Both the position numbers and the translations under genes were made by a program. DNA of 64,000 nucleotides. Origin: Streptomyces sp. NBC_01571. GTDB taxonomy: Bacteria; Actinomycetota; Actinomycetes; Streptomycetales; Streptomycetaceae. This document shows, one piece after another, positions 6,727 to 13,415 of the stretch. The notes under the pieces are model-generated. The model ran no database searches. It saw nothing but the letters and a program-made list of their open reading frames with translations, and had not been told where the DNA came from. The DNA lies in the NCBI RefSeq assembly GCF_026339875.1, contig NZ_JAPEPZ010000001.1, positions 4,588,001 to 4,652,000 of the forward strand. Reading direction: 5' to 3'. Positions within the stretch are counted from its first letter, which is position 1, and each line of letters opens with the position of its first letter.

Positions 6727-7081
6727 CACAACTCCCCGGCACGGCGCCTCGGCGGGGCCGGGGGCCGGTGGACGCCTGGGTTCGCGCCGGAGGCGGCGGC
6801 TCACCGTCTCCCGGACGCGCAGCCCTTCGGGAAGACGCCGCACAGGCTCTCGCCCCGCTCGCCGCGCACCCTTCGATCGTATACCCGGGCCGTTCACGCG
6901 GCCCGGGAAGCAGATGCCTCATCCGTGACCACGGTTCGAGGATGTGAACCGAGGTCTGGTCTAACGATTCGGAAAATGTAGACCCCACGCGTCCCTCCTC
7001 CCGCATACAGTGCTACGCAGGCCGACTTTTCTGAACGCGTTCAGAAGTTCGGGGGGCGGTCCACGGGGAGGGTTTCGCGCG

Positions 7082-8704
7082 ATGCGCAAGGGGGCAAAGG
7101 CCGCCATCATCGGCAGTGTGTTCGCCGTGATGGTGGGAGGCGCCGGATACGGCGCGTTCAACGTGGTGACCGCGCTCGACGGGAGCGAGAGCGCGGGCGG
7201 GCCCGCTCCGGTGAAGAGCGGGCCGCCGAGCGGCGCGGAGGTCAAGGACACCTCGGCGAAGTTCCTCGCGGCCTGGGAGAAGGGCGACGCGACCAAGGCG
7301 GCGACGTACACGAACTACGCGAGCCAGGCCGAGGCTCTGCTGGCCGGCTACCGCGCCGACGCGCACCTCACCGGCCTGCGGATCACACCGGGCACGCCGT
7401 CCGGCGCCTCCGTGCCGTTCTCGGTGAAGGCCACGGTGTCGTTCGGGGGGAAGTCCAAGCCCCTCGCGTACGACTCGGAGCTGACCGTCGTACGCGGCAG
7501 GACCACCGGAAAGGCGCTCGTCGACTGGAAGCCGTCGGTCGTCCATCCGGACCTCAAGGAGGGCGACACACTGGTCACCGGCGAGTCGGCGAGCCCGCCG
7601 ATCGAGGCCGTGGACCGGAACAACGTTGTCCTGACCAAGGAGAAGTACCCCTCCCTGGGCCCGATCCTGGACGCGCTGCGCGAGAAGTACGGCGACGACG
7701 CGGGCGGTACGGCGGGCGTGGAACTCGCGATCCATCACGCGGCCCAGGACGCCGGCGACACCACCCTGGTGACCCTCGCCAAGGGAGAGCCGGGCAAGCT
7801 GCGCACGACGCTCAGCGCGAGCGCTCAGGCCGCCGCGGAGAAGGCGGTCGCGCGGTACGCCGAATCGTCCGTGGTCGCGGTCAAGCCCAGCACCGGCGAG
7901 GTGCTGGCGGTCGCCAACCACCGCGCGGACGGCTTCAACGCGGCCTTCCTCGGCAAACTCGCCCCCGGCTCCACCATGAAGATCATCAGCGCCGCCACGC
8001 TCATCGACAACGGCATCACCACGGCGAACGGCCCCGCGACCTGCCCGGACACCGCGGTCTCGGAGAGCCAGACCTTCCACAACCTGGCGAACATGGCACC
8101 CCAGAAGAACGCGACGCTCTCCGACAGCTTCTCGCGCTCCTGCAACACGGCCTTCGTGAAGTACGCGGACACGGTGAAGGTCGACTCGCTCACCAACGAG
8201 GCGCAGCAGCGCTTCGGCCTCGGCCGGAACAACTGGAAAACCGGCATCGAGTCCTTCGACGGCTCCGTCCCGGCCTCCGGAGGCCCCGACACCGCCGCCA
8301 ACCTGATCGGCCAGGGCCAGGTCCAGATGTGCCCGCTGAACATGGCGTCCGTGACCGCGACCGCGATGACCGGTGTCTTCCGGCAGCCGGTCATCGTGTC
8401 GCCCGGGCTCGACAACCGTGAGATCGCCACCGCCAAGGGGCTGCCGCCGAGCACGGTCGCCCAGCTGCGCGCGATGATGAACCGCACCGCGGTCAGCGGT
8501 ACCGCCGCCCAGGTGATGGCCGGCCTCACCGGCAGGATCGGCGCCAAGACCGGCTCCGCCGAGGTCGACGCGCAGTCCCGGTCGAACAGCTGGTTCACGG
8601 GCTACCGCAACGACATCGCGGCCGCAGCGATGACCCAGCAGGGCGGACACGGCGTGGACGCGGCCGGTCCGATCGTCGCAGCTGTGCTACGAACGGGCGG
8701 CTGA
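7082..8704 (+). CDS. Penicillin-binding protein, transpeptidase (first of tandem pair)
   Basis: A 540-aa D,D-transpeptidase-type PBP. An N-terminal signal anchor (AAIIGSVFAVMVGGAGYGAF) leads to an NTF2-like (MecA_N) domain (residues about 45-160) and then a dimerisation/transpeptidase region. The active-site triad is present: PGSTMK near residue 297, SCN near 352 and KTGS near 489. The protein acts outside the membrane and cross-links peptidoglycan stems. The ATG at 7082 is preceded by GGGAGG. The next gene is a close paralogue, so the pair arose by duplication. In S. coelicolor such a pair adjoins ssgE; here other genes now separate them. Confidence 0.9.
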   Translation: MRKGAKAAIIGSVFAVMVGGAGYGAFNVVTALDGSESAGGPAPVKSGPPSGAEVKDTSAKFLAAWEKGDATKAATYTNYASQAEALLAGYRADAHLTGLRITPGTPSGASVPFSVKATVSFGGKSKPLAYDSELTVVRGRTTGKALVDWKPSVVHPDLKEGDTLVTGESASPPIEAVDRNNVVLTKEKYPSLGPILDALREKYGDDAGGTAGVELAIHHAAQDAGDTTLVTLAKGEPGKLRTTLSASAQAAAEKAVARYAESSVVAVKPSTGEVLAVANHRADGFNAAFLGKLAPGSTMKIISAATLIDNGITTANGPATCPDTAVSESQTFHNLANMAPQKNATLSDSFSRSCNTAFVKYADTVKVDSLTNEAQQRFGLGRNNWKTGIESFDGSVPASGGPDTAANLIGQGQVQMCPLNMASVTATAMTGVFRQPVIVSPGLDNREIATAKGLPPSTVAQLRAMMNRTAVSGTAAQVMAGLTGRIGAKTGSAEVDAQSRSNSWFTGYRNDIAAAAMTQQGGHGVDAAGPIVAAVLRTGG

Positions 8705-8800
8705 CGTCACCCTTCACAGGGCGGGACCCTAGGCTGGGAGCCCTCGTTGAGGAGCGTGAGGGCACCGGGGGCCAGGGGAAGCAGCGGAGGATCGGGAACC

Positions 8801-10465
8801 GTGGGGAAGAGAAGGCGCGTCGCCGAGCGACGGAAGACGAAGCCCGCCGTGGTCGGCGGGCTGATCGCCGTCGCCGTCGTCGGCGGGGCGTTCGGCGCCT
8901 ACAGCCTGTACGGCGGTGGCGCGTCCGCCGAGGACCGGACGAGCGCCGGCCACAAGGCCGTGAAGACCGGTCCGCCGACGGCGGCCGAGGTCACCGCCCT
9001 GTCCACGCGGTTCCTCACCGCCTGGCAGAGCGGTGAGGTCGCGAAGGCGGCCGGCGCCACCACCGACGCCGGGGCCGCGACGACCGTGCTGACCGGCTAC
9101 ACCAAGGACGCGCACATCACCGGCGTCACGGTCACGGCGGGCAGGCCGTCGGGAGCCTCCGTCCCGTTCTCCGTCAAGGCCACGGTCACCTACCAGGGCA
9201 AGAGCAAGCCGCTGGCGTACGAGTCGAAGCTCACCGTCGCCCGGCGGGCCGTGGACGGCGTCGCGCTGGTCGACTGGAAGCCGTCCGTCGTGCACCCGGA
9301 CCTCCAGGACGGCGACCGTCTGGTCACCGGCGCGGCGGGCACTCCCCCCATCACGGCGCTGGACCGCGCCGGCGGTGAACTGACCACGGCCAAGTACCCC
9401 TCGCTGGGCACGGTCCTGGACGGGCTGCGCGAGAAGTACGGCAAGACCGCCGGCGGCACGGCGGGCATCGAGCTGCGGGTGGTCCGCAAGGCCGCGGCGA
9501 AGGGCACCCAGAAGTCGCCCGACAAGACGCTGGTGACCCTCAGCGAGGGCACCCCGGGCACGGTGCGGACGACGCTCAGCGCGGCCCTCCAGGCGGACGC
9601 CGAGCAGCAGGTCGAGAAGAAGACCAGGGCGTCGGTCGTCGTGATGCGTCCCTCGACGGGCGAGATCCTCGCGGTCGCCAACCAGAGCCACGGTTTCAAC
9701 ACCGCCCTCCAGGGTTCCCTGGCACCCGGATCCACGATGAAGGTCATCACCTCGTCGCTGCTGATCGAGAAGAAGATCGCCTCGGCGGACAAGCCGCACC
9801 CGTGCCCGAAGTACGTCACGTACGGCGGCTGGAAGTTCCAGAACGACGACAAGTTCGAGATCAAGGGCGGCACGTTCAAGGCGAGCTTCGCGCGGTCCTG
9901 CAACACGGCCTTCATCAGCCAGGCGAAGAAGCTGGAGAACGCCGACCTGACGCAGCAGGCCCAGCAGGTCTTCGGGCTGAGCATGAACAACTGGGCCATC
10001 GGCGTCCCCAGCTTCGACGGCTCGGTGCCCGTCCAGTCGCAGGCCCAGATGGCGGCCTCGCTGATCGGCCAGGGCGGAGTCCGCATGAACCCGCTGAACA
10101 TGGCGTCGGTCGCCTCGACGGTCAAGTCGGGAGTGTTCCACCAGCCGTACCTGGTGTCGCCGGACGTGGACCACCGCAAGCTGGCCACCGCCTCCCGCAC
10201 CCTCTCTGCGGACACGCTCTCCCAGCTCCGCGAACTCATGCAGTACACGGCGGCGTACGGTACGGCCGCCGAGGCGATGTCCGGGCTCGGCCCCGACTAC
10301 GGCGCCAAGACGGGCTCCGCCGAGGTCGACAACCAGAAGAAGCCGAACGGCTGGTTCACCGCGTGGAAGGGTGATCTCGCCGCGGCCGGCGTGGTCCAGC
10401 AGGGCGGCCACGGCGGCGACACCGCGGGCCCGATCGTGGCGGCGCTCCTCAAGGCGGGAAGCTAG
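8801..10465 (+). CDS. Penicillin-binding protein, transpeptidase (second of tandem pair)
   Basis: A 554-aa paralogue of the preceding PBP, with the same order: basic N-terminus and signal anchor (VVGGLIAVAVVGGAFGAYSLY), NTF2-like domain and transpeptidase domain. The motifs are PGSTMK near residue 311, SCN near 366 and KTGS near 503. Stretches such as VDWKPSVVHPDL and GASVPFSVKATV are identical or nearly so in both copies. The GTG at 8801 is preferred, with GGAGG 11 bases upstream; an in-frame GTG at 8747 is possible. The gap to the first PBP is under 100 bp, so one transcript is likely. Confidence 0.9.
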   Translation: MGKRRRVAERRKTKPAVVGGLIAVAVVGGAFGAYSLYGGGASAEDRTSAGHKAVKTGPPTAAEVTALSTRFLTAWQSGEVAKAAGATTDAGAATTVLTGYTKDAHITGVTVTAGRPSGASVPFSVKATVTYQGKSKPLAYESKLTVARRAVDGVALVDWKPSVVHPDLQDGDRLVTGAAGTPPITALDRAGGELTTAKYPSLGTVLDGLREKYGKTAGGTAGIELRVVRKAAAKGTQKSPDKTLVTLSEGTPGTVRTTLSAALQADAEQQVEKKTRASVVVMRPSTGEILAVANQSHGFNTALQGSLAPGSTMKVITSSLLIEKKIASADKPHPCPKYVTYGGWKFQNDDKFEIKGGTFKASFARSCNTAFISQAKKLENADLTQQAQQVFGLSMNNWAIGVPSFDGSVPVQSQAQMAASLIGQGGVRMNPLNMASVASTVKSGVFHQPYLVSPDVDHRKLATASRTLSADTLSQLRELMQYTAAYGTAAEAMSGLGPDYGAKTGSAEVDNQKKPNGWFTAWKGDLAAAGVVQQGGHGGDTAGPIVAALLKAGS

Positions 10466-10506
10466 ACCACGGACGGCAGCCCGGTGGACGTGCGCGAGCG
10501 GCGCCG

Positions 10507-10767
10507 GTGACCCCACAGGTCACCGCGGCGGTGCTGTTCGCCGCGTTCACCCACGACGGATACATCGCCTGGCTGATGGCGCTCCTGGATGCCGTACTCC
10601 CGCTGTACGCGGCCCACCGTCTGCGCGGGGAGTTCGTCGCCTCGCTGCGACACTTCGCCGCCCTCCGCCTGCTGGGCTCGGCGCTCTCCGTCCTCGCGTA
10701 CGGCCTCGTGCTCCGGGCCCAGACACGCGCCGCGCTGGCGCCCATCCCGGCGCTCCGGGAGTCCTCG
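10507..10767 (+). pseudogene. EamA/DMT-family transporter pseudogene, left part
   Basis: The frame begins at GTG 10507 with a typical EamA N-terminus (VTPQVTAAVLFAAFTH). It then jumps directly to a segment that in intact Streptomyces homologues lies in the second half (GYIAWLMALLDAVLPLYAA, ALSVLAYGLVLRAQTRAALAPIPALRESS). About 150 residues, several membrane helices, therefore appear deleted internally. After the Ser codon TCG (10765-10767) the reading enters foreign DNA. The remainder of the gene resumes at 13258. Family assignment is from remembered homologues and needs a search. Confidence 0.65.
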
Positions 10768-10787
10768 GTCAAGCCGTGCTCATGCAG
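10765..10787. repeat. Left attachment junction (attL-like): TCG core plus inverted-repeat arm
   Basis: The transporter codon TCG (10765-10767) is followed by GTCAAGCCGTGCTCATGCAG (10768-10787). This 20-mer is an inverted copy, 17 of 20 matching, of the sequence at 13237-13256. It marks the left end of the inserted element. Confidence 0.7.
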
Positions 10788-10903
10788 CAATAACTTCGCT
10801 GGTCAGGGGGCCGGAGAAGCAATTCCGTACGCCCCGGCCTCGTCCCGCGTCATGACAGCGCGATGGACATCTACCGTTTCGCCGACCTCAGTTGGCGACG
10901 TGC

Positions 10904-11587
10904 TCAACCCAGCGTGAGCCACCGGACGCCCAGGCGGCTGACATCCAAGGCTTCCTCCCCGGTGATCGGCTCGCGCCCCGTCGCCTTGCGCAGAAAGCGA
11001 AGCTGACCCCAGCCCAGCTTCTCCAGTGCCGCTGCCCCATCCGGCCCGAGCAGAAGACCCTGCACCAGATCTGCGGCCCGGGAAGTCAGCCACGGCTCAC
11101 GCCCCAGGGCGTCGGCCAGGTCCAGACCGTGCACGGCGACCTCGACCACGCGCGTCAGCACGAACTCCGACAGGAGCATCGGATCGCCGTGCCGCGTGCG
11201 AACCACACGCCCTTCGGGCTCGGCCCGGCACAGTCGGTCCACCTCCTGCCAAGTGGCGCCGAAGTCGTCGGCGAGTGCGGCACCGCTGAGCAGTTCGGCC
11301 GCATGATCTCGGGCCAGAGCGATCCGAGCCGCGTCGGTGGCCGGAGCGAAACGGTCGTCGGGCCGGTAGTACTCCACTGCCGAAACCTCGGCACGGGTCG
11401 GCGCCGGCGCGGCCAGCATCCCCGGAAGCCAGGCGATCACCACCCGAACATGAGCCAGCAAATCGCTCACGTTCCACGGTGCACACCGCGTCGGCAGACC
11501 CCACTCGGCCCCCGAGACCTCCGCCATCGCCTGAGCGAGCTGCCCCGCCTCAAGACGAAATGCTTCAACTGCCCGCCCCTGATCCAT
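10904..11587 (-). CDS. TIGR03083-type (maleylpyruvate isomerase/DinB-like) mycothiol-dependent protein
   Basis: 227 aa. The N-terminal four-helix DinB/MDMPI-type region contains the typical APWNVSDLLAHVRVVIAWLPGML, and the second half has VLTRVVEVAVHGLDLADALGREPWLT, both hallmarks of this actinobacterial family. Members are thought to be mycothiol-dependent, metal-binding enzymes; the substrate here is unknown. The ATG at 11587 is the best start, although no strong ribosome site is visible. It is cargo of the integrated element and is intact, unlike most of its neighbours. Confidence 0.72.
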   Translation of the reverse strand: MDQGRAVEAFRLEAGQLAQAMAEVSGAEWGLPTRCAPWNVSDLLAHVRVVIAWLPGMLAAPAPTRAEVSAVEYYRPDDRFAPATDAARIALARDHAAELLSGAALADDFGATWQEVDRLCRAEPEGRVVRTRHGDPMLLSEFVLTRVVEVAVHGLDLADALGREPWLTSRAADLVQGLLLGPDGAAALEKLGWGQLRFLRKATGREPITGEEALDVSRLGVRWLTLG

Positions 11588-11695
11588 GCCGATCAAGCTA
11601 CCCAACCAGAACTGGCCCGCAGATCTCAAACGCACTCCGCGCCCCCGGTACGGTCGAGGTCGCGTCTCGCGCACGAACACGTCGGCCCAGACACA

Positions 11696-11839
11696 ATGCC
11701 CGGCACGGCCACGGATGGGCACTGGCGATACGTCGGCTCCGGCCATACCCCCGGCGCCGCACTCCTGGCCGCCGGAATCGCCGAAGACATCGCCACGAAC
11801 CGTGAGATCGCCCGCGAAGAGCGTGAGGTGCTCCGGTGA
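11696..11839 (+). CDS. Short hypothetical protein (47 aa) in the element
   Basis: A small frame with high GC at third positions, reading MPGTATDGHWRYVGSG at the start and ending in EDIATNREIAREEREVLR. It may be the C-terminal remnant of a longer gene. Its TGA overlaps the GTG of the next small frame (GTGA), an arrangement typical of compact phage or plasmid gene runs. No family is recognised. Confidence 0.35.
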   Translation: MPGTATDGHWRYVGSGHTPGAALLAAGIAEDIATNREIAREEREVLR

Positions 11840-11976
11840 CGAGATGCCACAGCGAGAAGGAGGCTCGGGCAGTCGAGCGCCAAGCAGCCAAGTTCCCCAC
11901 ACGGATAGGGCCGAAGAGCGCTACGCGACTCGCGCGGCTCCTCGGCGCTGCACGGGAGGATTCCAGGTCTCGTTGA
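11836..11976 (+). CDS. Short hypothetical basic protein (46 aa) in the element
   Basis: Begins at GTG 11836, overlapping the stop of the preceding small frame. The product is basic (KEARAVERQAAKFPTRIGPK, LARLLGAAREDSRSR) with a helix-forming appearance. Codon use (AGA, ATA, GCT, CGT) is less GC-biased than the flanking core genes. Its end meets the transposase scrap on the other strand, so it may itself be truncated. Confidence 0.35.
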   Translation: MTRCHSEKEARAVERQAAKFPTRIGPKSATRLARLLGAAREDSRSR

Positions 11977-12142
11977 CGGACCCGATGATCTGCCGCAGTG
12001 GCCTGAACACCCCGGCCACAGCCCGTTCCCGCTCTCCCCTACGGGGCGGCCGCAGCAGCCGGATCTCCAGCGCGGCGACGTCGCGCTCGAAGGTCTCCGG
12101 TCCTCTCGATGCGGCGGGGCAGGGGCCGTCGCGCGTCGGCAA
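11921..12142 (-). pseudogene. Transposase fragment (IS982/IS4-like C-terminal piece)
   Basis: The minus-strand frame includes LLRPPRRGERERAVAGVF followed by RPLRQIIGSVNETWN. Common Streptomyces IS982-type transposases carry a similar block (LLRPARKGE...FKPLRQIIESVNDTLKGQLDLE). Similarity stops after NETW, where the sequence becomes unrelated. No intact transposase or clear terminal repeats surround it. It is interpreted as an IS scrap left by deletion inside the element. The identification is from remembered family sequence. Confidence 0.5.
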
Positions 12143-12147
12143 GGGGC

Positions 12148-12402
12148 TCAGCGGCGGCCTCGCCGGTCCTCGTAGTTGACGAAGAAGCTCACAACAAGGA
12201 GCACGCCGAAAATCCCCAGGCCGAAGGTGCCGAGGATCGTCCAGATTCCCTTACCGTCCAACGCGGAGCGCACCCCACCAGCGAGCCCGCCGACGGCCAT
12301 GCAAAAGCCGAAGACGAGCATCCGTGAACTTTGGGGTCTCAGCCAGTGCCGCAGATCCGGACGGCTGCGGCCGCGCGTGGGCGGGCCTGCGGAATGCGTC
12401 AT
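12148..12402 (-). CDS. Small two-helix membrane protein coupled to truncated upstream gene
   Basis: 84 aa. A basic N-terminus (MTHSAGPPTRGRSRPDLRHW) precedes two hydrophobic helices (MLVFGFCMAVGGLAGGV and IWTILGTFGLGIFGVLLVVSFFV) and a basic tail (YEDRRGRR). The start overlaps the upstream stop as ATGA, so translation is coupled to the preceding gene. The arrangement resembles a secreted or membrane-associated effector followed by a small membrane partner, but no immunity family is recognised. Confidence 0.65.
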   Translation of the reverse strand: MTHSAGPPTRGRSRPDLRHWLRPQSSRMLVFGFCMAVGGLAGGVRSALDGKGIWTILGTFGLGIFGVLLVVSFFVNYEDRRGRR

Positions 12403-12905
12403 TGGTACCTCGCCTTTCCCGGTTCTGCCGGGGCGTCCACATGGGTGTCGCCCGGGGTCCTGGGCTGATTGGGCGTGTAGTAGAAGTCGGTCCCCGTCGC
12501 GACCACGGCAACCGGCACGCCGAATATCTTCTCCCCGAACTTGCCGATCGTGTTGATGAACGTGGGGCGATGGTGCTTCCCGGTTACGTCGCTCAGGAGC
12601 GCGCCCTTGGCAAGGTGTTTGCCGGCCTCGCCGCCGGCCGCGGAGGGGGCGCCGCCGATTGCGCCCTGTATCGCGCCGTCGAGGTCTCCGTGCATGGCCG
12701 CCTCGGCGCCGCCCATCCAGGAGCGGTGACTGAGGAACTCGGCAATGGGCTTGATGGTGCCGCTGCCCCACTTCGTGGGCGGCGTGTACTCCACGGAATC
12801 CGTCTTGGTCTGCTCTGCCTGCTGGGCGTCGGTCCTCGCATCCTTGAGGGAGCCGTAGTACGTGCTGCCGAACTCGTTTTTTCCCTTGGTGAGTTGCCAC
12901 AAGAA
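12399..12905 (-). pseudogene. 5'-truncated gene, C-terminal part of an unknown large protein
   Basis: About 168 residues with good coding bias read LWQLTKGKNEFGSTYYGSLK, KTDSVEYTPPTKWGSGTIKP, a Gly/Ala-rich segment (HGDLDGAIQGAIGGAPSAAGGEAGKHLAKG) and a tail VPVAVVATGTDFYYTPNQP. No start codon with a ribosome site exists; the frame runs into integrase sequence at about 12906, so the 5' part was lost. The style resembles the C-terminal portion of Streptomyces type VII-secreted or polymorphic-toxin-like proteins, but this is inference only. Its TGA overlaps the ATG of the following gene. Confidence 0.5.
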
Positions 12906-12906
12906 G

Positions 12907-13228
12907 CTATTCGAGGTCCTTGGGCTGCCGCATGAGGCGGTCGGGGTGGTAGACGACGACGTGCCGGACCTCTCCCTCCCCCATCGCCTTCGGCATCTCG
13001 TCCCACCCTGGCCGCTTGCGGTTGCGCTGCCACGCCGAACGGTTGTCGTCCACGTAGACGTGGGCCGCCTCGACACGGAGCTGAAGCCGTGCGGCGATCT
13101 CCCCGGCAGATGCGTTCCTGCCGGTCGACGCCAGTCTGATCCTCGTCCTTGGTGTGGGAGATCCGGCAGTAGATCGCTGCGGGCTCGCCCGGCGTGATCG
13201 TGGCCTTGGCTAACTTCGATCGGGTCAT
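12907..13228 (-). pseudogene. Large serine recombinase (phiC31-type integrase), N-terminal fragment, frameshifted
   Basis: From ATG 13228 the frame reads AAIYCRISHTKDEDQTGVDR and then RQERICR. The catalytic Ser lies in CRIS and the GVDRQE helix is conserved. One extra G in a CGGGG run (about 13101-13105) shifts the frame. After correction it continues EIAARLQLRVEAAHVYVDD, NRSAWQRNRKRPGWDEM, EVRHVVVYHPDRLMRQPKDLE, a classic serine-integrase catalytic core. A TAG (12909-12907) then replaces the expected Glu codon, and similarity ends. Only about 105 of the usual 450-600 residues remain. It starts 9 bp inside the right attachment arm, the usual place for int. Confidence 0.8.
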
Positions 13229-13236
13229 GACAAACA

Positions 13237-13260
13237 CTGCATGAGCCCGGTATGACATCG
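13237..13260. repeat. Right attachment junction (attR-like): inverted-repeat arm plus TCG core
   Basis: CTGCATGAGCCCGGTATGAC (13237-13256) is the inverted partner of the left arm. One base later TCG (13258-13260) begins the resumed transporter frame. Joining the two ends gives a dyad of about 44 bp centred on A-TCG, the size and form expected for a serine-integrase attP. Confidence 0.7.
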
Positions 13261-13415
13261 ATCATCATCGGCGCGGCGATCGGCGCGGTCTTCTCCAAGG
13301 AACGGTTCGGGGCGCCCCGGATCGCGGCGGCGGGGCTGCTGGTCGTGGGCATCGGGCTGATGCTGCCCGCGGGACAGACGCTGCGGACCGGACCGGCGGG
13401 CTGCCCCCGCAGGGC
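13258..13415 (+). pseudogene. EamA/DMT-family transporter pseudogene, right part
   Basis: From the TCG at 13258 the frame reads SIIIGAAIGAVFSKERFGAP and then RIAAAGLLVVGIGLMLP, the typical last helix of an EamA transporter. Joined to the left part at TCG it gives ESS-III-GAAIGAV, matching the expected family sequence without a frameshift. The end shown is approximate: the original stop appears lost and the frame drifts on into the next gene's antisense strand. Confidence 0.65.

Follow-up and report, generated by a model that had tools for sequence, protein, structure and literature searches.

In Streptomyces, large serine integrases have become known mainly through phages. Among actinomycete integrative and conjugative elements (AICEs), the main text of Ghinet et al, 2011 (PMC3218068) reports that 19 of 144 use a serine recombinase, some of them inserted in protein-coding genes, and that in one element, Faln2929, the serine integrase gene is convergent with tra and rep and excision was detected. 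Here, we analyzed a 64,000-nucleotide stretch of Streptomyces sp. NBC_01571 (contig NZ_JAPEPZ010000001.1; "the window") in which an insert with remnants of a serine integrase gene and of a RepSA-type replication initiator gene splits a transporter gene. Based on comparison with related loci and genomes (L and G numbers; the window's own genome is G000), the insert is very probably a decayed AICE that was joined to the host by its own large serine integrase.

Attachment sites of the insert

A first-pass annotation, made from the letters of the window, had described the insert as the footprint of a phiC31-type element whose ends and flanks rebuild attP and attB. The two ends carry a 20-nt inverted repeat with 85% complementary arms (pair I7 in a repeat search of the window; Table 1). 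Joined at the core, they form a 20+4+20 bp dyad in which 17 of 20 positions pair, as proposed for attP. This level of pairing was reached in none of 400,000 shuffles of the two insert ends and three times per 200,000 random pairs of places within the window. A search of the 11.5 Mb genome for the left arm, allowing up to three mismatches, gave three hits (both insert ends and one other), and so did a reversed-pattern control; hence an arm by itself is not rare, and the improbable part is the pairing at both ends. No second paired copy of the att arms was found in the 11.5 Mb at this threshold.

Joining the window's flanks gives GAGTCC-TC-GATCATCATCGG, which agrees with the uninterrupted gene in 29/29 intact loci tabulated (L002–L030, the loci returned with sequence, excluding that of the window). 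In all of these, attB reads GA(G/A)TC(C/G)TC, then G (28 loci) or C (one locus), then ATC(A/C)TCGT(G/C); the third isoleucine after the junction in the window is a valine in the relatives' transporters. The intact orthologue L004 is an EamA-type, i.e. DMT-superfamily, transporter (PF00892, E 3.5e-15), in good agreement with the target named in the first-pass annotation. Neither window half alone had a Pfam match. In a genus-wide draw, the joined halves matched in 151 of 199 genomes (E <=0.001), some of these matches being weaker and paralogue-like. The reading frame of the transporter is restored at the junction, as had been claimed, although the joined gene is not full length, because about 465 bp are missing internally relative to L033 (by blastn, window 10474–10559 aligns to L033 2351–2436, and 10557 onward to 2902 onward).

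The attL/attR geometry is borne out by independent genomes. With a 492-aa integrase query (P0001, from G130; its locus is identical to S. hirsutus L044), relatives of the full-length protein were found at 13 named Streptomyces loci. At 11 of the 13 (L044–L051, L053–L055; judged by flanks), the integrase lies at this transporter junction, at the same base pair as the window insert. Across the genus, 32 of 392 genomes matched the integrase at E <=1e-60, eight of them near full length at 74% identity or more. Six of these eight lie at the transporter in the window's orientation (G130, G343, G296, G364, G109, G264), one at the transporter in reverse (G030), and one elsewhere (G024). Contig coordinates show that G130 coincides with L044, G343 with L053, and G364 with L050. 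Counting each site once and including the window, 16 transporter sites are occupied, of which 15 share one orientation and one is reversed. The integrase N-terminus was present in four of eight genomes checked (G000, G109, G130, G030), exactly those in which the transporter is interrupted at this residue and the integrase lies at the break. The joined-halves search returned only a partial transporter in G163, G107, G142, and G055, with the integrase in 0/4; the core stretch is unbroken in G107, G142, and G055, the G142 gene being truncated further upstream, and G163 is cut by a contig end.

The likely crossover dinucleotide

The window reads TCG at both junctions (10765–10767 and 13258–13260), and TCG had been put forward as the core. 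We compared 10 attL sites, the attR sites of the 11 named transporter loci and of the window, and the attP of pNL15-2K-Cir (NZ_CP130632.1), a replicon described below. The attL sites were those of the window, L032/G109, L033/G130, L047 (on a different contig from its integrase), L048, L050, L051, L053, L054, and L055; L049 (distal end eroded), L045 (transporter half unmatched), and L046 contributed none, and L052 is absent from the att comparison because its integrase-side junction does not read GA. TC is the sole part common to all sites. In all 10 attL, host letters run up to TC and the next element base is G in six and A in four. In attR, the element end ...ATGACA is followed by TC and then by the host base, which is G in the window and in 9/11 named loci and C in 2/11 (L046, L047). 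The un-split attP of pNL15-2K-Cir, which also bears out the attP rebuilt from the window, reads ...ATGACA-TC-AGTCAAC..., the element base after TC being A. The base after TC thus varies both between elements and between hosts, which makes TC the predicted crossover. TCG as a three-base core was therefore rejected, and on this comparison the G of TCG in the present genome is a coincidence. No direct duplication longer than the 2-bp core is present in attL and attR, and attP is an imperfect dyad centered on it. In this comparison, elements of the integrase family are joined to the host at TC within a conserved ALRESSII stretch near the 3' end of the transporter.

Gene content of the element family

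The replicon pNL15-2K-Cir (L057) encodes a close integrase relative, RepSA, an FtsK/SpoIIIE protein, a GntR regulator, and an SCO3933-family protein (Pfam, NCBIfam; the Pfam scan covered 10 of the 12 annotated proteins). The integrase has Resolvase (PF00239), Recombinase (PF07508), and zinc ribbon (PF13408) domains. RepSA matches PF20199 (E 2.6e-153) and scores 473.9 against the NCBIfam RepSA equivalog, below the cut-off of 700; the FtsK/SpoIIIE protein matches PF01580 (E 5.7e-25) and only weakly the NCBIfam TraB equivalog (32.3 vs 800). Relatives of all five genes were found at 80–92% identity in L051 (9,994 bp between cores) and G109 (19,443 bp), and at 62–75% on a G030 contig; relatives of the FtsK-type protein reach 73–91% in L051, G109, and G030.

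By sequence, pNL15-2K-Cir is a free form of this element family, reported as a circular plasmid of 11,584 bp (PMC11812412). The record itself has 11,596 bp, is listed as linear, and has ends without exact overlap, and its circularity consequently rests on that report. The attP lies inside the record, so its reading is independent of circularity. The record is labeled Kutzneria buriramensis in the collection; its own title and PMC11812412 give Streptomyces sp. NL15-2K.

In the window insert, the remnants of integrase and RepSA genes are convergent, as in L051 and G109. Aligned with P0001 by tblastn, the integrase remnant covers residues 1–53 in one frame and continues from 53 in another, to a stop at the break; its ORF alone gave no Pfam match but aligns to the family by tblastn. 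The RepSA remnant corresponds to about the last 47 codons and matches that region of related elements at ~71–88% (blastn). The isomerase-like gene is probably cargo; it has an 85% nucleotide match beside att arms in L052 and 88% matches in G022 and L094 (blastn). Window 12206–12877 resembles L097 at 70% nucleotide identity, and the resembled protein in G029 adjoins an ORF that we take to be WXG100-like. At L052 (20291–21421, Streptomyces sp. V4I2), two copies of the distal att arm, ~1 kb apart, enclose a relative of the isomerase gene.

This mosaic interior, in which an isomerase-like gene, the fragment resembling a WXG100 neighbor, a RepSA end, and an integrase start stand side by side, implies more than one event, and could be read as a composite of unrelated insertions whose end dyad is coincidental. 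We regard that as extremely improbable given the shuffle result for the dyad, and given that both pNL15-2K and other genomes carry arms that match at the same base pair.

Table 1 Features of the insert and its host gene in the window.
Feature	Position	Strand	Basis
5' part of EamA/DMT-type transporter (attL host side)	10507..10766	+	blastn to L033; lacks ~465 bp near 10557-10559; 99% to the query built from it
attL	10757..10790	+	host GGGAGTCC, crossover TC 10765-10766, element arm GGTCAAGCCGTGCTCATGCAG
Distal attP half-site arm (left inverted repeat)	10768..10787	+	pair I7 and shuffle test
Mycothiol-dependent maleylpyruvate isomerase-like gene (MDMPI_N / TIGR03083)	10904..11587	-	PF11716 E 7.6e-18 on ORF 10904-11902; TIGR03083 E 3.6e-16
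RepSA-type replication initiator, 3' end remnant	11699..11839	+	tblastn with RepSA of pNL15-2K and L051, E 3e-9 and 1e-11
Small hypothetical ORF	12148..12402	-	no NCBIfam match
Fragment like the C-terminal part of a hypothetical protein	12399..12899	-	abuts the integrase break; no NCBIfam match
Serine integrase remnant	12902..13258	-	codons 1 to ~116 of 492, in two frames, rest lost
attR	13236..13275	+	element arm ...GGTATGACA, crossover TC 13258-13259, host GATCATCATCGGCG
Integrase-side attP half-site arm (right inverted repeat)	13237..13256	+	pair I7 and shuffle test
3' part of EamA/DMT-type transporter (attR host side)	13260..13374	+	~77-91% nucleotide identity to orthologues over 13258-13373; residues 85-124 at 98%

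The footprint could instead be that of a defective prophage of the phiC31/R4 kind, and the integrase does have remote phage relatives. Against 50,697 phage records, however, all 303 matching records were below 60% identity (~25–34% among the matches listed), and no close relative was confirmed in IMG/VR. The related elements carry RepSA and FtsK genes, and Pfam named no phage structural gene among the 10 scanned of the 12 pNL15-2K proteins, a statement limited to Pfam since no phage family library was searched and the remaining genes of the other elements were read by eye. We rejected a phage origin because the integrase is distant from those of the phage records and because of the genes that the related elements carry, and we give it very little probability. 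The serine-integrase part of the phiC31-type description (dyad, attB, and attP) stands; with relatives that combine the integrase with RepSA and FtsK/SpoIIIE proteins, the carrier would be an AICE and not a phage.

Proposed insertion and decay, and possible mobility

Based on established serine-integrase biochemistry, the following course is proposed. An AICE-class element would have entered the chromosome through its own large serine integrase, whose dimers would bind the half-sites, cut at TC, rotate, and rejoin, thereby severing the last segment of the transporter; excision would need a directionality factor. Decay in place would then have stripped the element of the larger part of its integrase, of almost the whole of RepSA, and of the transfer and regulatory genes present in relatives, and the host gene would have eroded too. 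Both att half-site pairs are kept, so that excision of the insert in trans by a related integrase is possible.

The same retention of both the attL and the attR arm beside a broken integrase, together with the isomerase-gene relative between two distal-arm copies in L052, could instead indicate, beyond simple decay, a small mobilizable element that persists because of its isomerase-like cargo and that related integrases excise in trans. No second paired copy of the arms was found in this genome, though, broken gene pieces other than the cargo persist in the insert, and the arms may have had too little time to decay. We consider such an element unlikely, and a decayed AICE the better description.

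Related integrases and site choice

In a midpoint-rooted tree, one supported group (97/98) unites 13 transporter-site integrases with three from other sites and with that of the free replicon; the G030 integrase stands next to it (97/87). The tree leaves out L049, L083, and L086 as well as duplicates of L044, L050, and L053, includes partial rows (L065, 272 aa; L080, 115 aa; L085; L087), and takes in ten further rows labeled "sis".

Several observations weigh against a decayed AICE of a family tied to the transporter site. No recognized transfer gene of the FtsK/SpoIIIE type was seen in the window insert, which is thus at most a decayed AICE whose identity rests on the RepSA remnant, the integrase, and the relatives. 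When 100 relatives were searched with the whole insert, a full-length match was obtained in G000 alone, the others matching piecewise. Integrases of the same tree group do not all use this site: L052, L056, and L064 (G024) lie elsewhere; the transporter attB is empty in the L052 and L056 genomes (L118, L119), and the joined-halves search found no transporter match in G024. Integrase fragments also lie away from the intact transporter in G040 and G253, and on the tree the transporter-site label needs five changes, three of them forced. Exclusive use of the transporter site is ruled out by L052 and L056 (2/13 named loci) and by G024 (L064).

Sister integrases, ~54–57% identical to P0001, share one place at L067, L072, L073, L075–L079, and L081. 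The gene interrupted at L067 encodes a luciferase-like monooxygenase (PF00296, E 1.5e-30), and the eight other loci have 100–109 of 120 flank bases in common with L067. Judged by sequence likeness, this monooxygenase gene is a second protein-coding target of the integrase family, directly at L067 and by flank likeness at the rest. For these nine ~54% sister integrases (labeled LLM), the transporter site was rejected as target on the PF00296 match at L067 and the flanks shared by the other eight. The G040 fragment, of the same kind as the window integrase and 86% identical, lies at L096 (G040:C1:2508041-2508391), far from the intact transporter of G040.

A reversed sister element

In serine integrases, swapping the central dinucleotide reverses the direction of integration. 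Core swapping is mentioned in PMC10083194. In G030, the 5' half of the transporter meets the integrase-side arm on contig C25 (L034 1545–1600), and its 3' half meets the distal arm on contig C4 (L092 1470–1515). Assembled from both junctions and read in the integrase direction, the G030 attP is ...TTGACA-TC-TGTCATACC..., compared with ...TTGAC(C/T)-GA-TGTCATA(C/G)C... for the window and pNL15-2K. The letters next to the core are near-palindromic, which leaves the dinucleotide as the main difference there between G030 and the other attP sites. The reversal in G030 together with its swapped core dinucleotide is what the polarity rule would predict.

The reversed junction is a single case, found in one of 392 genomes by pattern search. 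The two G030 junctions lie on two contigs and the integrase frame carries a stop, both of which count against a polarity switch; the orientation may alternatively reflect an inversion after integration. On balance, we lean slightly towards the combined view that the transporter site is an undescribed Streptomyces serine-integrase attB and that the element family holds a natural switch of integration polarity. If true, G030 would be a natural test of whether the direction of integration by serine integrases is set by the central dinucleotide, as the rule holds.

Neighboring genes

The gene that precedes the transporter in relatives, presumably YbaK-like, is nearly all missing here (window 10465–10510). 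Further upstream, two adjacent penicillin-binding-protein-like ORFs, similar in sequence by reading, occupy window 7010–8704 and 8747–10465, the latter with MecA_N and transpeptidase domains (Pfam).

Comparison with known systems

Literature searches for serine recombinases together with AICEs and RepSA matched only Ghinet et al, 2011 (PMC3218068). The AICEs described there have the same kit of integrase, RepSA-type Rep, and FtsK/SpoIIIE transfer protein, and the words "transporter" and "DMT" are absent from its main text, the site table being in a supplement outside that coverage. No paper naming the transporter attB was found in our searches, which did not cover the supplementary site tables of large surveys; to that extent the suggestion of a new integration site is not contradicted, and the kind of element is already known.

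Decayed Streptomyces AICEs were described by Choufa et al, 2022 (PMC9513070): a truncated integrase plus cargo remain, flanked by direct repeats, at a protein-coding site that is empty or holds a complete version in other strains, as is the case here. Their example lies in a glycosyltransferase gene, whereas here a transporter gene is split and the shared core has 2 bp; "transporter", "DMT", and "EamA" are absent from the main text of that study.

The phage integrases phiC31, phiBT1, TG1, R4, SV1, phiJoe, and Samy, in part as reported in PMC7460540 and, for Samy, in PMC12924846, belong to the same enzyme class and follow the same attP/attB logic. Their target genes differ from that of the window (for Samy, a radical-SAM protein gene is reported; PMC12924846), and no close relative of the window's integrase family was found among the phage records. 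The closest described replicon, pNL15-2K-Cir, has the close integrase relative and the un-split attP, and is called a circular plasmid, not an AICE, in PMC11812412. The locus thereby offers, outside the usual phage set, an attP and an attB that are well supported as partners of an AICE serine integrase. Natural variants of attB and a free form are also available to work from, and the pair could be used for orthogonal integration in Streptomyces.

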